Source of the DNA: Candidatus Roseilinea sp.
Lineage (GTDB): Bacteria > Chloroflexota > Anaerolineae > J036 > Brachytrichaceae
Length of the DNA stretch: 64,000 nt
Assembly (NCBI GenBank): GCA_026003755.1
Contig: BPHV01000001.1
Coordinates: 558,001 to 622,000 of the forward strand
Reading direction: 5' to 3'
This document shows, piece by piece, positions 25,921 through 61,290 of this stretch. The translations under genes were made by a program, and so were the position numbers. The notes beneath the pieces are model-generated. The model searched no databases and had not been told where the DNA came from. It worked only from the letters and a program-made list of their open reading frames with translations. Positions within the stretch are counted from its first letter, which is position 1; each line of letters begins with the position of its first letter.

Positions 25921-27005
25921 CCCTCCTGCTGAAACAGTGCTTTCAAGATTTGTTCACCTGTTAGGAATTCATTGTCTTGAAAGTTATTCCAGACTTGCTC
26001 AAGGCGTTTTTTCATATCGTCAAAACTCACCGAGTTCGATTGCCCCGGTTGCCCCGGTTGCCCCGGTTGCCCCGGTTGCCCCGGCTGCCCCGGCTGCCCC
26101 GATTGCCCCGGCTGCCCCGATTGCCCCGGCTGTCCCGACTGTCCTGGCTGTCCTGGCTGCCCCGGTTGACCCGGCTTTACAAAGCCGAAGGTGCGCCGTC
26201 CTTCGGTCGGATGCTTGAAACTGAACACCTTCTTGCTCTCCTGCTGGCTGCCAGCGAGCCAAGAATCACCTTGCGCGGATCGTTGCTTTGGCTCTGGGCG
26301 GCCGATAACGACATTAAAAGAACTTGTGTTGGCGTTCTGCCTTGCCAGATACCGCCCCTTCACACACCAGAAGTTTTGCAGCGAAGCCCAGGAGAAGTCG
26401 TGCGCTACTCCCTGTTTGTCTTGGTATGAATGTGGCGCTTGACGCCAGCCGTTTTGCGTCACATAGTCTCGGATGTCTTTAAGCGTTTTGTTACACTGCC
26501 AGCCTTGAGGGCTTTCTATGTACTCCACAAGCCCAAAGTCTTTGTGATGAAGTGCATTCTGCCTATTCTGCTGATCCGACGGCTTGAACACTGTCTTCCC
26601 GCCTATCGCGCCGTAGTTGGCGATGAGGCGCAGGGTGGCATCCAGCAGGCACCACTCCTCGTCCCGAATCGGTCGCAGGGGGATGAAGCGCAGGATGAAG
26701 GTTTGACCGGCTTGAATCCGGTCTTGAGTAACCTGCCCGTTCTCATCCAGAATCATCAACCGGAACTTGCGCGCCCAGCCGGTGCAGCCGAAGAGTTCGC
26801 AGACCACGCAGTGCCGACCGTCCTTGTCCGGGCAGCGCACATCCGACGTGGGGTCGCACGCCTTCCCGCCGAGGCCGCGCACCAGCACCTCAAACCACCA
26901 GCGCAGTGATCCCATGATGCCGGTTGGAATGAGGCGGTCGGGTTTCCCTGCTGCGTCTCCGGTCCAGATGTCGGTATGGGCTGTGAGCTTCCATTCTTTC
27001 ACCAT
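25911..27005 (-). CDS. cmr1: Cmr1-like RAMP protein with collagen-like insert
   Basis: 364 residues, first gene of the operon, ATG 27005. WKLTAHTDIWTGDAAGKPDR followed by IPTGIMGSLRWWFEVLVRGL is the Cmr1 opening with its G-x-L-R-W-W motif. A cysteine cluster (CDPTS...CPDK...CVVCELFGCTGWARKF) follows, then IANYGAIGGKTVFKPS. Residues ~277-322 are fifteen PGQ/SGQ triplets, a collagen-like run absent from Cmr1 proteins I know. The C-terminus resumes as a helical segment (FDDMKKRLEQVWNNF). Cmr1 caps the 3' end of the Cmr complex. Confidence 0.8.
   Translation of the reverse strand: MVKEWKLTAHTDIWTGDAAGKPDRLIPTGIMGSLRWWFEVLVRGLGGKACDPTSDVRCPDKDGRHCVVCELFGCTGWARKFRLMILDENGQVTQDRIQAGQTFILRFIPLRPIRDEEWCLLDATLRLIANYGAIGGKTVFKPSDQQNRQNALHHKDFGLVEYIESPQGWQCNKTLKDIRDYVTQNGWRQAPHSYQDKQGVAHDFSWASLQNFWCVKGRYLARQNANTSSFNVVIGRPEPKQRSAQGDSWLAGSQQESKKVFSFKHPTEGRRTFGFVKPGQPGQPGQPGQSGQPGQSGQPGQSGQPGQPGQPGQPGQPGQPGQSNSVSFDDMKKRLEQVWNNFQDNEFLTGEQILKALFQQEGCS
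26041..26175 (-). repeat. Fifteen 9-bp repeats encoding (PGQ/SGQ)n in cmr1
   Basis: Fifteen consecutive 9-base units of the type tgccccggt (plus strand), with point changes at a few positions. Each encodes Pro/Ser-Gly-Gln. The count is a multiple of three bases throughout, so expansion or contraction leaves the frame intact. Confidence 0.95.
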
Positions 27006-38289: not shown

Positions 38290-38313
38290 TGTGCCCTCCA
38301 GATTGGGGAGAAG

Positions 38314-38362
38314 TCAGAAGTCAGATATCAGATATCAGATATCAGATATCAGATGTCAGATG
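38314..38362 (+). repeat. Heptamer array (TCAGATA)n, left side of the four-helix-bundle gene
   Basis: Seven consecutive 7-bp units: TCAGAAG, four TCAGATA, two TCAGATG. The gene's stop codon (38349) lies inside the array. It is the inverted counterpart of the array at 38737-38820. Confidence 0.92.
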
Positions 38363-38732
38363 CAGGCTGATCTTCGCGCTGCAAGGACTTGGCCAAACCG
38401 ACAATCATCGCCACGATCTCATCCACGTCTTTGAGCAACGAATCGGCGAGTGCATCGGTCCAGTATCCAAGCCCGCGCGCGATGTCAATCCCGGTCATGA
38501 CCTCGTAGCCCGAACGCTGCGCAATTTCAAGAAAGCGACAGAATTCTCGATTCGAGCTGTTGCCTGATCCCTCTGCGATATTGAGCGGGATCGCGGCGCT
38601 CGCTCGGCGCAGCTGGCTGACCAAGCCGAATCTCTCGTCCGCGGGGAACTGGGCAGTCTCTCGATAGATCGAAATCGTGAACGCCATCGCCCTCTGCCAG
38701 ACTTTGAGATCCCTAAACTTGTGCTTAGCCAT
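38349..38732 (-). CDS. Four-helix-bundle protein (S23/23S rRNA intervening-sequence protein family)
   Basis: 127 residues. FRDLKVWQRAMAFTISIYRE, LVSQLRRASAAIPLNIAEGS and REFCRFLEIAQRSGYEVMTG are hallmarks of the S23-like four-helix bundle, related to Avd of diversity-generating retroelements. Function is unproven; members bind nucleic acid. It stands between two genes of a sugar operon, and heptamer arrays in inverted orientation run into its 3' end and sit just before its start, suggesting that gene and arrays arrived as one unit. Confidence 0.88.
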   Translation of the reverse strand: MAKHKFRDLKVWQRAMAFTISIYRETAQFPADERFGLVSQLRRASAAIPLNIAEGSGNSSNREFCRFLEIAQRSGYEVMTGIDIARGLGYWTDALADSLLKDVDEIVAMIVGLAKSLQREDQPASDI

Positions 38733-38736
38733 CCGT

Positions 38737-38820
38737 CTCTGACCTCTGACTTCTGACCTCTGACTTCTGACTTCTGATTTCTGATTTCTGATTTCTGATT
38801 TCTGATTTCTTACTTCTTTC
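38737..38820 (+). repeat. Heptamer array (TTCTGAT/TTCTGAC)n, right side of the four-helix-bundle gene
   Basis: Twelve 7-bp units: CTCTGAC x2, TTCTGAC, CTCTGAC, TTCTGAC, TTCTGAT x5, TTCTTAC, TTCTTTC. The register continues across the stop codon of the isomerase gene (38810-38812). Reverse complement of a unit (e.g. GTCAGAA) matches the left array's core. Confidence 0.92.
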
Positions 38821-39814
38821 TCTCAAACGCTGCGTCGAAGGCCATCGCGCTGGGTTTGAAGTCGTAGCGGCGCACATTCGCGCAGCTCTCGGTTGCGCCG
38901 TGCTCACGATCCATGCCGGGGTCTTCCCATTCGACCGACAACGGGCCGTTGTAACCGATCTCGTTCAACGCCCGGATGATGGCGTCGAAGTTGATGTTGC
39001 CGCGGCCCACGCTGCGGAAGTCCCAATAGCGGCGCGAGTCGCCGAAGTTGGTGTGGCCGCCGAACACGCCGGCTTGCGTCGGCACGCTGCTCCAGGCGAC
39101 GTCTTTCATGTGCACGTGATAGATCCGATCGCGGAACTTGCGGATGAATCCGACGTAATCCACACCCTGATAGCCGAAGTGCGAGGGGTCGTAGTTAAAC
39201 CCGAACTCAGGCCGATGATTCACTGCCGCCAGGGCGCGCTCGGCGCTAACGATGTCGAAGGCGATCTCGGTAGGGTGCACCTCCAGCGCGAATTTGACCT
39301 GGTTCTCCTTGAACACATCGAGGATGGGGTTCCATCGCTCGGCGAACTCGGCATAGCCGGCGTCAATCATGGCCGGGCTGACCGGCGGGAACGAATACAC
39401 ATACGGCCAAATGCTGCTGCCGGTGAAGCCATTCACCACCTTCACCCCAAACAGCTTGGCCGCGCGTGCGGTGTTGGCTACTTCTTCGGCAGCGCGCTTG
39501 TTCACCTCCGACGGCTTGCCGTTCCCCCACACGCGGGGCGGCAGGATGGCCTTATGCCGCTCATCAATCCGATCGCAGACGGCCTGGCCCACCAGATGGG
39601 TGCTGATCGCGAAGCACTTCATGCCATGCTTGTTCAACACGTCCCATCGTCCGCGCACGTAGCTGTCGTCGCTCAACGCTTTCTCAACGTCGAAGTGATC
39701 GCCCCAACAGGCGAGCTCCACGCCGTCGTAGCCAAACGACTTGGCTTTCTCTACGATGGTCTCGAAGGGCAAATCGGCCCACTGACCGGTGAAGAGGGTG
39801 ACAGGTCTTGCCAT
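38810..39814 (-). CDS. Sugar phosphate isomerase/epimerase (AP endonuclease 2-like TIM barrel)
   Basis: 334 residues. [63 protein letters not shown] and [15 protein letters not shown] supply the Glu/Asp/His/Glu metal ligands of this family. It probably acts on the product or substrate of the Gfo/Idh dehydrogenase, a common pair in inositol or rare-sugar pathways. The 3' end has been joined to a heptamer array exactly at its stop codon. Confidence 0.88.
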
Positions 39815-41371: not shown

Positions 41372-41420
41372 TTTTACCTCACTATACGTTTTACCTCACT
41401 ACGTTTTACCTCACTATACG
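41372..41420 (+). repeat. Three tandem 15-17-bp AT-rich repeats
   Basis: Units TTTTACCTCACTATACG, TTTTACCTCACTACG and TTTTACCTCACTATACG, back to back. The AT content stands out from the surroundings. They could be protein-binding sites or a replication slippage product. No gene is seen from here to 41597. Confidence 0.85.
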
Positions 41421-41597
41421 TTAGCACATCAGCGCATGACGCGCGGATGAGTGATCTGAGGGCGGGCGCACGAGGCGCTGTTCTCCGCGAGCGCCACAGT
41501 CAATGTGCACGGCGGCTCAAAGTGAGTGAAGGCTGGGCATGCGTGCTCCGCCCTGGGTTTTGCTGAATCAAGTCTACGCGCAGTCATGCTTTTTCCT

Positions 41598-55184: not shown

Positions 55185-55194
55185 CCATCGCCGA

Positions 55195-55250
55195 GTTACG
55201 AATTACGTATTACGCATGACGTGTTGCGTATCGCGCACCGCGTAATACGC
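55195..55250 (+). repeat. Eight degenerate heptamers before recG
   Basis: Units: GTTACGA, ATTACGT, ATTACGC, ATGACGT, GTTGCGT, ATCGCGC, ACCGCGT, AATACGC. The last ones complement the first (ATTACGC versus GCGTAAT), so the transcript can fold. They end two bases before the recG ATG and would form its 5' leader. Confidence 0.8.
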
Positions 55251-55251
55251 C

Positions 55252-57876
55252 ATGCCCGCCATGCCCAATCCAGCGACTGAAAAACTCCTCAAAATCCTCA
55301 GGCTCGAAGCGCAGACCGGCTATCACGACAAGGCGGTCACACGCGGCCTGCAGTCGTTCGCTGCCGCTTGGCTGGCCGACGCCGCGCGCAACGACATTGA
55401 CCCCGACTGGGCCGAGACGATCGCGCAGGAAATGCGCGACTACAGCGCCTCTGCCGATGAAGCGCACCGTCGCGCGGCGCTCGACGCGCTGATGACCCGG
55501 TTGCGCTCGCCCGTCCTGCGCAGCTCGACGCAGGCGCGCGCCAAGGGCACCCCCAGCCCCCCTTCGTCACAGCGCCCCTGCGAAGGAGCGATGACATTTG
55601 CAACGGAAAATCAGGCTGCCACAGACTCCGAAATATCGCCCGTGGAGACGGCGCCGGCCGTCACGACTGCGCCGCCCCCCGACGCTGCCCCCGCACTCAC
55701 CCCAGATGCCAAGCCGCCGCAGTCGGTGGAGCAGCCGGCACAACGTCGGCGCTCAGAGACGCGCCCCGCCAACCCGCGCGAAGCCGGCCTGGGCCTAGAC
55801 GCGCCGGTGACCAAGGTCGTCGGCATTGGTGACTTCAACGCGCAGAAGCTGGCTCGCCTCGGCGTGCATACCATCCGCGACTTGCTGTATTACTTCCCGA
55901 CGCGCTACGACGATTACAGCGCAATGAAGACGATCAACCAGCTCTTTTACGGCGAGCAAGTCACCATCATCGGGCGCATTGCGTCGGTGCGCAAACATCG
56001 AACGAAAAGCAACTTAATGATTGTGCGCGCGGTGATCGAGGACAAATCGGGCGCCATCGAATGCAGTTGGTTCACCGGCGAGCGCTACGTTGATCACTTG
56101 ATGAAGCAGTTGTCGGTCGGGCGGGAGATCGTCATCAGCGGCAAGGTGACCGAGTATTTGGGCCGGCTGACCTTCCAGAACCCCACCTATGAGCCGGCCG
56201 AGCGCGAATGGATCACCGGCGGCAGCATCGTGCCGGTGTATCGCCTGACCGAGGGGTTGCAGCCGCTGCTGTTGCGCCGGGTGATGAAGCGCATGGTCGA
56301 GTACTGGCCCTCGCGCGTGCCCGAGCATCTGCCCGAGGAGGTGCGCAGCGAACTCGGCCTCATGCCGATCGCCGAAGCGCTGCGCGAAATTCACTTCCCA
56401 CGCTCCATGAAGTCGCAGGAGCGCGCGCGACGCCGGCTGGCCTTCGACGAACTGTTCACGGTTCAGTTGGCCGTGCTGCGCCAACGTCAGATTTGGCGCC
56501 AGGCGCCGGCGCAACCGCTGCGCGTTGATCCGGCTGTGCGCGATCGGCTGATCGCCGCCCTACCCTATCCACTCACCGGCGCGCAACAACGCGCCCTGCA
56601 GGCCATCATCAAAGACCTGGGCCAACCCAACGCCATGCACCGGCTGCTACAAGGCGATGTCGGCTCCGGCAAGACGGTGGTCGCCGCGTTAAGCATGGCG
56701 CTGGCCGCGGGCTTGGGCGCGCAATCGGCCATGATGGCGCCGACCGAAATCTTGGCCGAGCAACACTACAAAACCATGAAGCGCCTGTTCGACGGCTTCG
56801 CCGAGCGCGGGGCTACCGCTCCGATCACGCTGGCGCTGCTGACGGGTAGCACGAAGCCCGGCGAGAAGCGCACCATCCACGATGGACTCGCCCACGGCAG
56901 CATCCACGTCGTGATCGGCACACACGCCTTGATCCAGGAAGCTGTATCGTTCCAGAACCTGGGGCTGGTGGTCGTAGACGAGCAACATCGTTTCGGCGTG
57001 TTACAGCGCGCGGCGCTGCGGCAAAAGGGCGGCGCGTTGAACCCCCACACGCTGGTGATGACGGCAACCCCCATCCCGCGCACCCTGGCGCTCACGCTCT
57101 ACGGCGACCTGGACAACACGGTGCTCGACGAGATGCCGCCCGGCCGTCAACCGATCGAAACGCACTGGTTCACCCCCGCCGAGCGCGAGCGCGCGTACCG
57201 CTTTGTGCAACACCAGGTCGAGCAAGGCCGACAAGCCTTCATCATCTGCCCACTCGTCGAAGAGTCGGACAAGATCGAGGCCAAGGCAGCGGTGGAAGAG
57301 CACGCGCGACTGCAGCGCGAGGTGTTCCCCACGCTCAAGCTGGGCTTGCTGCACGGCAAGATGAAGCCAGCGGAAAAAGAGCAAGCCATGCGCGCCTTCG
57401 CCAGCGGTGAGACGCATATCCTCGTCTCCACCTCGGTCGTCGAAGTGGGCATTGACGTGCCGAACGCGACGGTCATTTTGATCGAAGGCGCGAACCGCTT
57501 CGGCCTGGCACAACTGCACCAATTCCGCGGGCGCGTCGGCCGCGGCGAGCACAAGTCCTACTGCCTGCTGATCGCCGACACCAGCTCGGCCATCAGCGAC
57601 CAGCGCCTGCAGGCGATCGTGAACACCCAGGATGGCTTCAAGTTGGCCGAGATTGACCTGGAAATTCGAGGCCCGGGCGAGTTCTTCGGCACTCGCCAAA
57701 GCGGCGCCCCCGAGCTCAAGCTGGTCAGCGTGAGCGACCGCGACTTGTTGGATGCGGCGCGCGCGCAGGCCGAGAAGCTGCTCGAGCACGATCCGGAGCT
57801 AGCACAACATCCCTTGCTGGCCGAGAAGGTGTCCGAATTCTGGAAGCATCGCGAGGCGGTCGGCGACGCAAGCTGA
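55252..57876 (+). CDS. recG: ATP-dependent DNA helicase RecG
   Basis: 874 residues. A ~185-residue N-terminal extension has a helical part and a Pro/Ala-rich linker. The wedge/OB domain starts at VTKVVGIGDFNAQKLARLGV and YGEQVTIIGRIASVRKHRTK. The motor has GDVGSGKTVVAAL (Walker A, ~468), MMAPTEILAEQHYKTMKRL, VVVDEQHRFGVLQ (DEQH, ~576), VMTATPIPRTLALTLYGDLD, and GRVGRGEHKSYCLLI (motif VI). RecG remodels stalled replication forks. It is followed closely by coaD. Confidence 0.95.
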   Translation: MPAMPNPATEKLLKILRLEAQTGYHDKAVTRGLQSFAAAWLADAARNDIDPDWAETIAQEMRDYSASADEAHRRAALDALMTRLRSPVLRSSTQARAKGTPSPPSSQRPCEGAMTFATENQAATDSEISPVETAPAVTTAPPPDAAPALTPDAKPPQSVEQPAQRRRSETRPANPREAGLGLDAPVTKVVGIGDFNAQKLARLGVHTIRDLLYYFPTRYDDYSAMKTINQLFYGEQVTIIGRIASVRKHRTKSNLMIVRAVIEDKSGAIECSWFTGERYVDHLMKQLSVGREIVISGKVTEYLGRLTFQNPTYEPAEREWITGGSIVPVYRLTEGLQPLLLRRVMKRMVEYWPSRVPEHLPEEVRSELGLMPIAEALREIHFPRSMKSQERARRRLAFDELFTVQLAVLRQRQIWRQAPAQPLRVDPAVRDRLIAALPYPLTGAQQRALQAIIKDLGQPNAMHRLLQGDVGSGKTVVAALSMALAAGLGAQSAMMAPTEILAEQHYKTMKRLFDGFAERGATAPITLALLTGSTKPGEKRTIHDGLAHGSIHVVIGTHALIQEAVSFQNLGLVVVDEQHRFGVLQRAALRQKGGALNPHTLVMTATPIPRTLALTLYGDLDNTVLDEMPPGRQPIETHWFTPAERERAYRFVQHQVEQGRQAFIICPLVEESDKIEAKAAVEEHARLQREVFPTLKLGLLHGKMKPAEKEQAMRAFASGETHILVSTSVVEVGIDVPNATVILIEGANRFGLAQLHQFRGRVGRGEHKSYCLLIADTSSAISDQRLQAIVNTQDGFKLAEIDLEIRGPGEFFGTRQSGAPELKLVSVSDRDLLDAARAQAEKLLEHDPELAQHPLLAEKVSEFWKHREAVGDAS

Positions 57877-59055: not shown

Positions 59056-61290
59056 GTGAGCGCGCGCGCCGAGAAGATCTGCGCAGCGCTGATCATCGCT
59101 GCGTCATTTGTCCTCTTCAGCCTCTACAGCGTTCTCACGCCGCTCTTCGAAGCGTCGGATGAACTGTGGCACTATCCGATGGTGCAACACCTGGCGACGG
59201 GCGGCGGCCTGCCGGTGCAGCGCGCCGGACAAACCGACGCCGAGGCCCCTTGGCGGCAAGAAGGCAGCCAGCCGCCGCTCTACTATTGGATCGCGGCTGC
59301 ATTCAGCGCGCCCTTCGATTCATCAAATTGGCGCGACATTCGACGCATTAACCCACACAGCGACATGGGCGTGCCCACGCGCGACGGCAATGCCAATGTC
59401 GTGTTGCACACGCCGGCCGAAGCCTGGCCCTGGGCGCGCGCCACGCTGGCCGTCCGCGCCGCGCGTCTGGCTTCGATCCTGATGAGCACGGCAACCGTGT
59501 TCTTCGCCTACCTGGTCGCCCGCGAACTCTTCCCGAATGACGCAGGACGCCGGACGCAAGACGCGAGTCTCCCGCGTCTTGCCTCTCCCGTCATCGTCGC
59601 CTGCACGCCGATGTTCGCCTTCATCAGCGGGGCGATCAACAACGACAACGCCGCCGTCATGTTCAGCACCCTCGGCGTGTGGTGGGCGCTGCGGCTGATG
59701 CGCATCGGCGATTTATCGCCTAAGAGCGCAGTCGTCGCAGGGGCTATTGCCGGCCTCGGCGCGCTGAGCAAGAGCAGCGCGCTGGGGTTGGTGGGCCTGT
59801 TCGGGCTTGCCGGCTTGCTGACCGCTTTTGACGCAAGACGCAAGGCGCAAGACGCGCCGCGCTCGCTCGTCTTTCGCCTTTCGTCTTTCGCCTTCGTCAT
59901 GCTTGCCGTCACGTTGCTCATCAGCGGCTGGTGGTTTGTGCGCAATCAGGCGCTCTACGGCGACCTGCTGGGCTGGAACGCCTTTCTCGATGTCGTCGGG
60001 CGGCGCGACCAGCCGGCTTCACCGGCGCAACTGTGGAGCGAACGCGAAGGCTTCATCTGGGCGTATTGGGGCGTGTTCGGCGCGATGAACGTGATCATGT
60101 CGCCGTGGATTTACGATGTGCTGAACGGGCTCGCAGCGCTGGCAGTCGTTGGGCTCGTCTTGCGTCTTGCGTCTGCCATCCTGGGCAGAGCGCCGCTGAC
60201 GCAAGACGCACGACGCAAGATCCTCCTCTGCCTCTTCTGGGTCGCGCTCGTCTTCGTGGCGCTGATGCGCTGGACATCGCTCACGCCGGCCTCACAGGGG
60301 CGACTGATGTTCCCGTGCATTGCCGTCATCTCGGCGGCGCTGGCCTACGGCTGGCGAATGCTCCATCGCTACGTGCTGCTGGGCGCGTGCGCCGGCTTGG
60401 CTGCGCTGGCGATCATCGCGCCGTTCACGTTCATCGCGCCGGCCTACGCGCAACCGCCTGACGGTTGGACGCAGCGCCTGCCGCTGACCGTGAACGCCGA
60501 ATTCGGCGGCGCAGTGCGTCTTCAGGAAGCCGGCTTCGATACGACGAGTGTTCCACAGCCCGGCGACGAGGTCGCACTGCACCTGAACTGGGCGCTGGCG
60601 CAGCCGGTGACGCGCAACTACAGCGTCTTCGTGCACCTCATTGACGAGCACGACGTGATCGTCGCGCAACGCGACATGTACCCTGGTCAAGGCAGCCTGG
60701 CGTTGAGCGAGCAGCCGGCCGGCCGCCGATGGAGCGACCGGTACACGCTGCGCCTCTCGCCGCTCACGCCGGCGCCCAAGCAACTGCGTTGGGCCGTCGG
60801 CCTCTACGACCACGCAACCGGCGAGCGGCTGCCGCTGGCCAACGGTGACGACCGCGCGCTCTTCGGCGCAATCGAACTCGGCAGACGCACGGACGAGTCG
60901 CCGCTGCTGCGCTATGCCAATGGGCTGGACCTGCTCGGTTATGCGCTCGATCCATCCGCCCTCATGCCCGGCGCGACGCTCACCGTTACCACCCGTTGGC
61001 GCGCCACGAGGCCTCTCCCGTACGATCTGAACGTGTCGTTGCAACTGCTGGACGATGGCGCAAACAAGATCGCGCAGCAAGACCTTGGGCAAATGCTCAC
61101 GCAGTGGCCGGTCGGCGCAGAGATTGCGCTGACCCACGCGCTGGCGGTGAGCGACGACGCCACGCCGGGCGTATACCGCCTGTTGCTGGTGTGGTATGCG
61201 CCGAACAACTTCGCGCGACTGCCGGCCTACGACGCACAAGGCCAATTCGCCGGTGATCAGATCACGCTGACGCGCTTGCGCATACGCTAG
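59056..61290 (+). CDS. ArnT/PMT-like membrane glycosyltransferase with C-terminal beta domain
   Basis: 744 residues, GTG start. About ten membrane helices in the first 460 residues (ICAALIIAASFVLFSLYSVL first). The first outer loop LFEASDELWHYPMVQHLATG carries the acidic pair used by lipid-linked-sugar transferases, followed by APWRQEGSQPPLYYWIAAAF. The last ~270 residues are two beta-sandwich units (VFVHLIDEHDVIVAQRDMYP; VTTRWRATRPLPYDLNVSLQ). Three heptamer hairpins are inserted in frame within loops. Substrate unknown. Confidence 0.82.
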   Translation: MSARAEKICAALIIAASFVLFSLYSVLTPLFEASDELWHYPMVQHLATGGGLPVQRAGQTDAEAPWRQEGSQPPLYYWIAAAFSAPFDSSNWRDIRRINPHSDMGVPTRDGNANVVLHTPAEAWPWARATLAVRAARLASILMSTATVFFAYLVARELFPNDAGRRTQDASLPRLASPVIVACTPMFAFISGAINNDNAAVMFSTLGVWWALRLMRIGDLSPKSAVVAGAIAGLGALSKSSALGLVGLFGLAGLLTAFDARRKAQDAPRSLVFRLSSFAFVMLAVTLLISGWWFVRNQALYGDLLGWNAFLDVVGRRDQPASPAQLWSEREGFIWAYWGVFGAMNVIMSPWIYDVLNGLAALAVVGLVLRLASAILGRAPLTQDARRKILLCLFWVALVFVALMRWTSLTPASQGRLMFPCIAVISAALAYGWRMLHRYVLLGACAGLAALAIIAPFTFIAPAYAQPPDGWTQRLPLTVNAEFGGAVRLQEAGFDTTSVPQPGDEVALHLNWALAQPVTRNYSVFVHLIDEHDVIVAQRDMYPGQGSLALSEQPAGRRWSDRYTLRLSPLTPAPKQLRWAVGLYDHATGERLPLANGDDRALFGAIELGRRTDESPLLRYANGLDLLGYALDPSALMPGATLTVTTRWRATRPLPYDLNVSLQLLDDGANKIAQQDLGQMLTQWPVGAEIALTHALAVSDDATPGVYRLLLVWYAPNNFARLPAYDAQGQFAGDQITLTRLRIR
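59556..59582 (+). repeat. Heptamer hairpin 1 inside the membrane glycosyltransferase gene
   Basis: A perfect 10-bp stem GCAAGACGCG / CGCGTCTTGC with a 7-nt loop, in frame, encoding part of a loop between helices. Confidence 0.85.
59830..59892 (+). repeat. Heptamer insert 2 inside the membrane glycosyltransferase gene
   Basis: GACGCAA, GACGCAA, GGCGCAA on the left (59830-59850) and GTCTTTC, GCCTTTC, GTCTTTC on the right (59869-59889), complementary in part. In frame. Confidence 0.8.
60157..60220 (+). repeat. Heptamer insert 3 inside the membrane glycosyltransferase gene
   Basis: GTCTTGC x2 and GTCTGCC (60157-60177) face GACGCAA, GACGCAC, GACGCAA (60198-60218). They can pair into a long stem. 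In frame. Confidence 0.85.

Follow-up and report, generated by a model that had tools for sequence, protein, structure and literature searches.

Heptamer hairpins in a membrane-protein gene of Candidatus Roseilinea and their possible relation to S23 genes flanked by heptanucleotide arrays

What is the origin of seven-base repeats that form hairpins within the reading frame of a gene? In Candidatus Roseilinea sp. a membrane-protein gene carries three tracts of such repeats. Here, we describe these tracts in a stretch of DNA of 64,000 nucleotides (the window, i.e. the whole stretch that was analysed), in the genome it belongs to (G000) and in related genomes (other G numbers). The original prediction was that the tracts are in-frame inserts at loop positions, that at least two of them form good stems, and that they are repeats colonising coding DNA. 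In Rickettsia, palindromic elements are tolerated in frame in coding DNA; these elements share a consensus and are cleanly inserted. To our knowledge, the excess of heptameric repeats reported in many bacteria has no explained source.

Heptamer tracts in the membrane-protein gene

All three tracts lie in frame in one gene, as predicted, and they are present in the predicted span of 59556-60220, except that the first starts about 17 bases earlier, see Table 1. At a score of at least 10 the gene contains five period-7 segments and none with a period of 4-6 or 8-13. When the codons are shuffled synonymously, with protein and codon usage held constant, the mean is 0.043 period-7 segments and the maximum two, i.e. 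none of 3000 shuffles reaches five. Neither does any of 3000 codon permutations. The folding energies of tracts 1, 2 and 3 are -25.2, -30.5 and -35.4 kcal/mol, so all three form stems (z about -3). Given the shuffles and the folding of all three tracts, the tracts are real and far from chance. The window is GC-rich (62.5%) and GACGCAA would suit common codons, which would favour an origin by chance or by the codon bias of the protein; however, both shuffle tests of the gene refute such an origin, and we regard it as extremely improbable.

Table 1. Positions of the features in the window that are discussed in the text
Feature	Position	Strand	Evidence or remark
Host gene, PMT_2-like membrane protein, 744 aa, GTG start	59056..61290	+	ORF; Pfam PMT_2 E 6.7e-8
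Heptamer tract 1, GACGCAx units then inverted CGCGTCTTGCC; in-frame hairpin	59539..59592	+	fold z -3.0
Heptamer tract 2, GACGCAA x3.7 then TCGTCTT/TCGCCTT x4; in-frame hairpin	59829..59898	+	fold z -2.9
Heptamer tract 3, CGTCTTG x2.7 then GACGCAA x3.3; in-frame hairpin	60155..60220	+	fold z -2.9
Whole S23 unit (locus A) with flanks, 532 bp	38291..38822		21-22 bp at same place in G001 (contig 8), G003, G006
Left heptamer array of S23 unit, AGAAGTC/AGATATC	38309..38362
S23/four helix bundle gene between arrays	38349..38732	-	PF05635, TIGR02436
Right inverted heptamer array of S23 unit, CTTCTGA/TTTCTGA	38737..38818
Degenerate inverted heptamer array, TTACGTA type, ahead of ORF at 55252	55193..55248		stem z -0.85

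The tracts are found in weakly conserved stretches of the protein alignment, with conserved hydrophobic segments on either side. In agreement with the predicted loop positions, these stretches are probably loops between membrane helices, judging from the alignment. The double heptamer GACGCAAGACGCAA occurs three times in the genome of 3.34 Mb, twice in this gene and once in the gene at locus L040; the three loops are therefore more alike than they are to anything else found in the genome.

Of 60 relatives, 59 have a match to the gene; the comparison covers 20 loci. Over these orthologues there are 15 period-7 tracts, where 0.5 are expected: five in G000, five in G001, two each in G002 and G007, and one, with another unit (CAATTCT), in G005. 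None is scored in G003, G006, G004 and G008 or in 11 family outgroups. If the hairpins were selected functional structures in RNA or DNA, serving regulation, mRNA stability or pausing of this gene, the folding of all three tracts (z near -3) would be explained, and so would the perfect hairpin of other sequence that G003 and G006 retain at site 2 (by eye). However, the absence of tracts from G004, G008 and all 11 outgroups, together with the lack of any scored tract in G003 and G006, makes such a function quite improbable.

At site 3 all nine members of the genus have the same 90-nt block, and between G004 and our sequence this block differs by 10 synonymous and 7 non-synonymous codon changes. 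The tracts had been predicted to be inserts, seen as clean gaps in homologues, and equal-length loops with conserved residues were named as the sign of the opposite. At site 3 no gap is found: the loops are of equal length in 9/9 genus members and their residues are partly conserved. Sites 1 and 2 vary, partly by 21 nt. At site 1 the loop is 21 nt shorter in G004 and 21 nt longer in G001 than in our gene. At site 2 the block has an equal length of 84 nt; as read by eye, it contains GACGCAA/TTTCGTC in the own clade, a perfect stem of 12 bp with another sequence in G003 and G006, and AACCAAG-type heptamers in G005.

In a tree built without the three loops, G003 and G006 are nested among the tract-bearing species, with supports of 0.89-0.998 on the branches concerned; loss or replacement of the tracts in these two is therefore likely. 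Further, the other heptamers and hairpins in orthologous loops point to in situ regeneration of the sequence rather than to a single element that is copied.

Heptamer arrays elsewhere in the genome

Arrays were scanned by period in a sample of 464 kb, i.e. the window and 20 evenly spaced stretches, from contigs C1 and C2 only. Nine arrays have period 7, and every other period from 2 to 13 gives 0-2. In a looser scan nine array sites are found; three lie within coding sequence, and one is accompanied by an S23 gene. The sequence of the unit differs from site to site. In general, heptamer arrays recur throughout the genome, often inverted, and some of them are in frame inside other genes (at L040 and L047). 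An array ahead of the ORF at 55252 (Table 1) was considered as a further hairpin and rejected, its stem being no better than those of shuffled sequences.

As read by eye, the units in the loop of the L040 gene are GACGCAA/AACGCAA, with CAATCGG units instead in G003. This loop is 21 nt longer in G007 and shorter in the family outgroups, so that DNA was added in the L040 gene. In the L047 gene the units, again by eye, are CAAATCG in our genome, AATCATC in G001 and CTCAACG in G015. A survey of genes for the same heptamers had been proposed: outside the membrane-protein gene GACGCAAGACGCAA is found only in the L040 gene, and heptamer arrays of other units are widespread.

In line with the prediction, repeats in coding DNA are found in other genes as well; a palindromic element shared by these genes is not supported. 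A dispersed palindromic element that inserts into genes in frame, comparable to those of Rickettsia, as was originally suggested, would fit the in-frame hairpins in three loops and the length of the L040 loop relative to the outgroups. However, there is no common consensus (even the double heptamer occurs just three times), the site 3 loops are of equal length in the genus, and orthologous loops carry different heptamers. The likeness to the Rickettsia elements is the in-frame palindromic sequence in coding DNA; here there is neither a shared consensus nor a clean gap in homologues, and we consider this origin unlikely.

By class the tracts in the gene are heptameric simple repeats. Features of this class that are seen here are an excess of period 7 over other periods, inverted pairs and a minority of intragenic arrays. 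According to the text of Rehm 2015 (PMC4692102), the heptameric repeats of Xanthomonas (GGGAATC) and Nostoc (GGGGA(C/T)T) are tandem and mostly intergenic, with an intragenic minority; Xanthomonas has 70-75 inverted heptamer pairs, and its prominent repeats are not at the same genes in two species. Beggiatoaceae have TAACTGA repeats (MacGregor 2015, PMC4679880). As far as these two texts go, they follow one unit sequence per genome and give no source for it, and their main texts do not mention S23 or four-helix proteins. What is alike is the tandem 7-nt arrays and the inverted pairs, while here the unit changes from one site to the next and S23 genes have arrays on their flanks. The TAACTGA unit is also found at the S23 loci L099/L277 (one place) and L100.

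REP elements are short palindromic repeats that are dispersed in prokaryote genomes (on REP and RAYT, see also PMC3733652). If the hairpins belonged to a REP/RAYT system, single palindromes would be moved by a Y1 transposase, and the genome does have one borderline Y1_Tnp match (23.0 bits). However, the palindrome at that locus is GTAG-tagged and unlike the heptamers, and the arrays at the heptamer sites are tandem, with units that keep changing. A GTAG- or CGTC-tagged single palindrome with a linked Y1 transposase is not found at the heptamer sites, and membership in REP/RAYT is very unlikely.

A few other repeats were observed. The borderline Y1_Tnp (RAYT-like) frame, at L297 1200-1730 (also L038 near 19615), contains the REP-like palindrome GTAGGGGCGGGTTTCAAACCCGCCCC, of which there is a further copy at L038 2371 on the minus strand. 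In the window there are fifteen tandem copies of the 9-mer TTGCCCCGG at 26040-26174, a 42-bp unit perfectly repeated three times in tandem at 681-804, and three copies of a 15/17-bp unit, TTTTACCTCACTATACG, at 41372-41422.

S23 genes between heptamer arrays

Stand-alone S23 genes are common and structures of their proteins have been solved. The PF05635 profile has five matches in this genome, at four places: the window at 38.3-38.8 kb, L005, L006 and a weak remnant at L008. Two of the five are one frame-shifted gene, the S23 gene of locus C, whose two matches are in different frames (L006/L007, C5 46121-46437). All three clear S23 ("four helix bundle") genes are flanked by inverted heptamer arrays, each with a different heptamer, and at the L008 remnant the heptamer traces are decayed. 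A full unit has a length of 0.5-0.65 kb and consists of a purine-rich heptamer array, the S23 gene and a complementary pyrimidine-rich array. By eye, all three units are just ahead of a start codon, between genes co-directional with S23. The predicted S23 transcripts fold as panhandles (z -5.2 at locus A and -9.8 at locus B).

The association is also seen outside this genome, at S23 loci that are mostly best-scoring matches rather than a random sample. A period-7 array is found within 400 bp of the S23 gene at 36 of 60 Chloroflexota loci (20 on both sides; 33/60 with approximate gene bounds at contig ends, 36/60 being the count with corrected bounds) and at 25 of 80 loci from many phyla (11 on both sides), 22 of these 25 being outside Chloroflexota by record title. 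On contigs that are classed as viral, and that could be true phages or host flanks, it is found at 16 of 35 loci (L106-L140; nine on both sides). Control genes, which are orthologues of three genes in relatives of this genome only, have an array in 1/50 cases (Fisher p 8e-12 versus Chloroflexota S23). Because of this origin of the controls, a zone of the same size 1.1-1.5 kb away, with an array in 4/80, is the fairer control for the many-phyla set. Periods 4-6 and 8-13 occur beside S23 at most 3 times in the Chloroflexota, many-phyla or viral set. Among further S23 copies period 7 is found in 8/19 in G086/G168 and in 10/19 in the genus, where period 8 is found in 5/19; with the nine-mer hairpin of G005 described below, this indicates that the period is not strictly 7.

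Of 212 scored S23 loci, 93 carry an array at a distance of up to 300 bp: on both sides in 46, upstream only in 27 and downstream only in 20. It should be noted that the underlying set of 213 loci, one of which gave no match, contains duplicates of at least three places (L060/L257, L073/L270, L099/L277) as well as near-identical viral contigs, and that L269 and L279, with two S23 genes each, are omitted. The median distance of the arrays from the S23 domain is 49 nt upstream and 37.5 nt downstream. On the sense strand the purine fraction is 0.62 in upstream and 0.42 in downstream arrays (p 1e-9), and in 24 of the 31 loci with arrays on both sides the inverted match between the arms is better than the direct one.

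In Coxiella, an S23 ORF within a panhandle forms an intervening sequence of the 23S rRNA, whose transcript is cut by RNase III; as reported in the text of Warrier 2016 (PMC4990558), two to three tandem GACAGAT and one degenerate heptamer precede the ORF, in a number that varies between strains. This is the only case found in the PubMed Central open literature, where no general link between S23 and heptamers was found. The likeness lies in the S23 ORF, the heptamers and the panhandle; the Coxiella sequence is in 23S rRNA, while the S23 units tested here are outside rRNA. Rfam detects no rRNA at the unit in the window, at L005 or L006, nor at 20 of the 25 loci in other species that have arrays, and we reject the S23 units as rRNA intervening sequences by location, or as another known RNA. 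We class the S23 unit as a new variant, which would work like an rRNA intervening sequence but is not one. An S23 ORF inside complementary terminal repeats is found in the S23 units, a description that leaves out the tracts in the membrane-protein gene.

Solved structural relatives of S23 are 2gsc and 2rld. The PHROGs family of Avd, an accessory protein of diversity-generating retroelements, is weakly matched by one of two S23 proteins tested (E 4.5e-6). However, a difference from these retroelements is that no reverse transcriptase is found: a PF00078 search of our genome (95% complete) gives 0 matches, and we reject this source.

Units are present or absent at corresponding places in related genomes. 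Locus A, in the window, has a length of 532 bp in G000, 567 bp in G007 and 560 bp in G002; the differences from our copy (35 and 28 bp) are multiples of 7, i.e. steps of 7 nt are observed here. The empty or short sites have 21 bp in G001 (contig 8) and G003, 22 in G006, 32 in G008 and 71 in G005, with 89 bp at a second place in G001, and the empty sites are free of heptamers. Locus B has a length of 655 bp in G000, 605 in G002 and 591 in G007, with short sites of 15 bp in G004, 18 in G008 and 43 in G006; the site in G005 has 100 bp and retains heptamer remnants. In G001 the S23 gene of locus B is only 73% identical to ours, the flanks are 90% identical and the arms are of another unit. Locus C has 582 bp in G000, 600 in G002 and 505 in G003; it is shortened to 162 bp in G006 and 175 bp in G007, where arms or traces remain. 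In G005 (L251) an S23-less hairpin of nine-mers (TGGTGTCNN), 111 bp long, is found at the site of the S23 unit. Whole units are gained or lost, and loss of the S23 part leaves the arms.

Three species share the S23 core of locus A (window 38363-38736; relatives L222, L223) without a single difference in 374 bp. The nearby flanks of G000 are diverged from those of the other two species, with 5-15 differences per 100 bp on the left side and 0-15 on the right. The identity of the core despite the diverged flanks of G000 suggests a recent transfer or conversion.

Origin of the in-gene hairpins

One possible source of such arrays is plain slippage: the polymerase would slip preferentially by 7 nt, arrays would grow where they are tolerated, and the S23 genes would be unrelated passengers. 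Most arrays are without S23, and units turn over by site and species, as slippage would have it. Earlier work related in the text of PMC4679880 reports that in many genomes heptamers are the most common of the long simple repeats, and proposes a 7-nt polymerase contact. However, plain slippage leaves unexplained the association with S23 across phyla, the inverted matched arms (24/31), the purine/pyrimidine polarity around S23 and the heptamer-free empty sites. As a complete account, we find plain slippage doubtful.

The explanation that we prefer, whose chances of being right and wrong we judge to be about equal, is that the hairpins in the gene belong, as bare arrays without S23, to a class of mostly inverted heptanucleotide arrays whose full form is the S23 unit. 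The period would be fixed at 7 and the unit sequence free: it varies by site, turnover of the heptamer between species is observed at one site, and the arms of a site share their unit. Arrays may grow and shrink in 7-nt steps through slippage, and the complementarity of the arms may be maintained by hairpin-templated repair. Deletion of the S23 part would leave bare hairpins behind. In addition, bare arrays would arise and turn over in permissive DNA, protein loops included, and in genes selection would retain a net change only if it is a multiple of three (21 nt). By analogy with the intervening sequences of 23S rRNA, the transcript of an S23 unit would fold as a panhandle and be handled in the same way. 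What probably connects the in-gene tracts and the S23 units is a common process, and the tracts may descend from such units.

Several observations count against this S23-based explanation. An S23 gene is lacking at eight of the nine array sites of the sample, which argues against the in-gene hairpins coming from S23 units. Further, at the threshold used, arrays are missing from 119 of the 212 S23 loci, and inversion is not seen at 7 of the 31 two-sided loci. An active transposon usually leaves near-identical copies at different sites; no such S23 copies are found when the loci of the genus, G086 and G168 are compared. At loci A and B, where the array ends vary, no target-site duplication is readable against the empty sites. 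The nine-mers of G005 and the period 8 of some genus copies speak against a strict period of 7. At site 3 the tract arose at a constant loop length, which is left unexplained by simple slippage.

A wider proposal is possible, and we put it forward tentatively. S23 genes may mark widespread, unrecognised small mobile or selfish elements, with an RNA panhandle and heptamer-array ends, of which the intervening sequences of 23S rRNA would be the one described branch. Much of the heptamer excess, in-frame hairpins included, would then be the ends and relics of such elements, and the S23 protein would act on, or make, the 7-nt steps.

The excess of heptamers and the function of stand-alone S23 genes are two puzzles that are tied together by a period-specific association across many phyla. 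Judging from the tracts in the membrane-protein gene, coding DNA may be reached by the same period-7 process, which would rewrite protein loops there, and the association with S23 may explain the origin of seven-base repeats.
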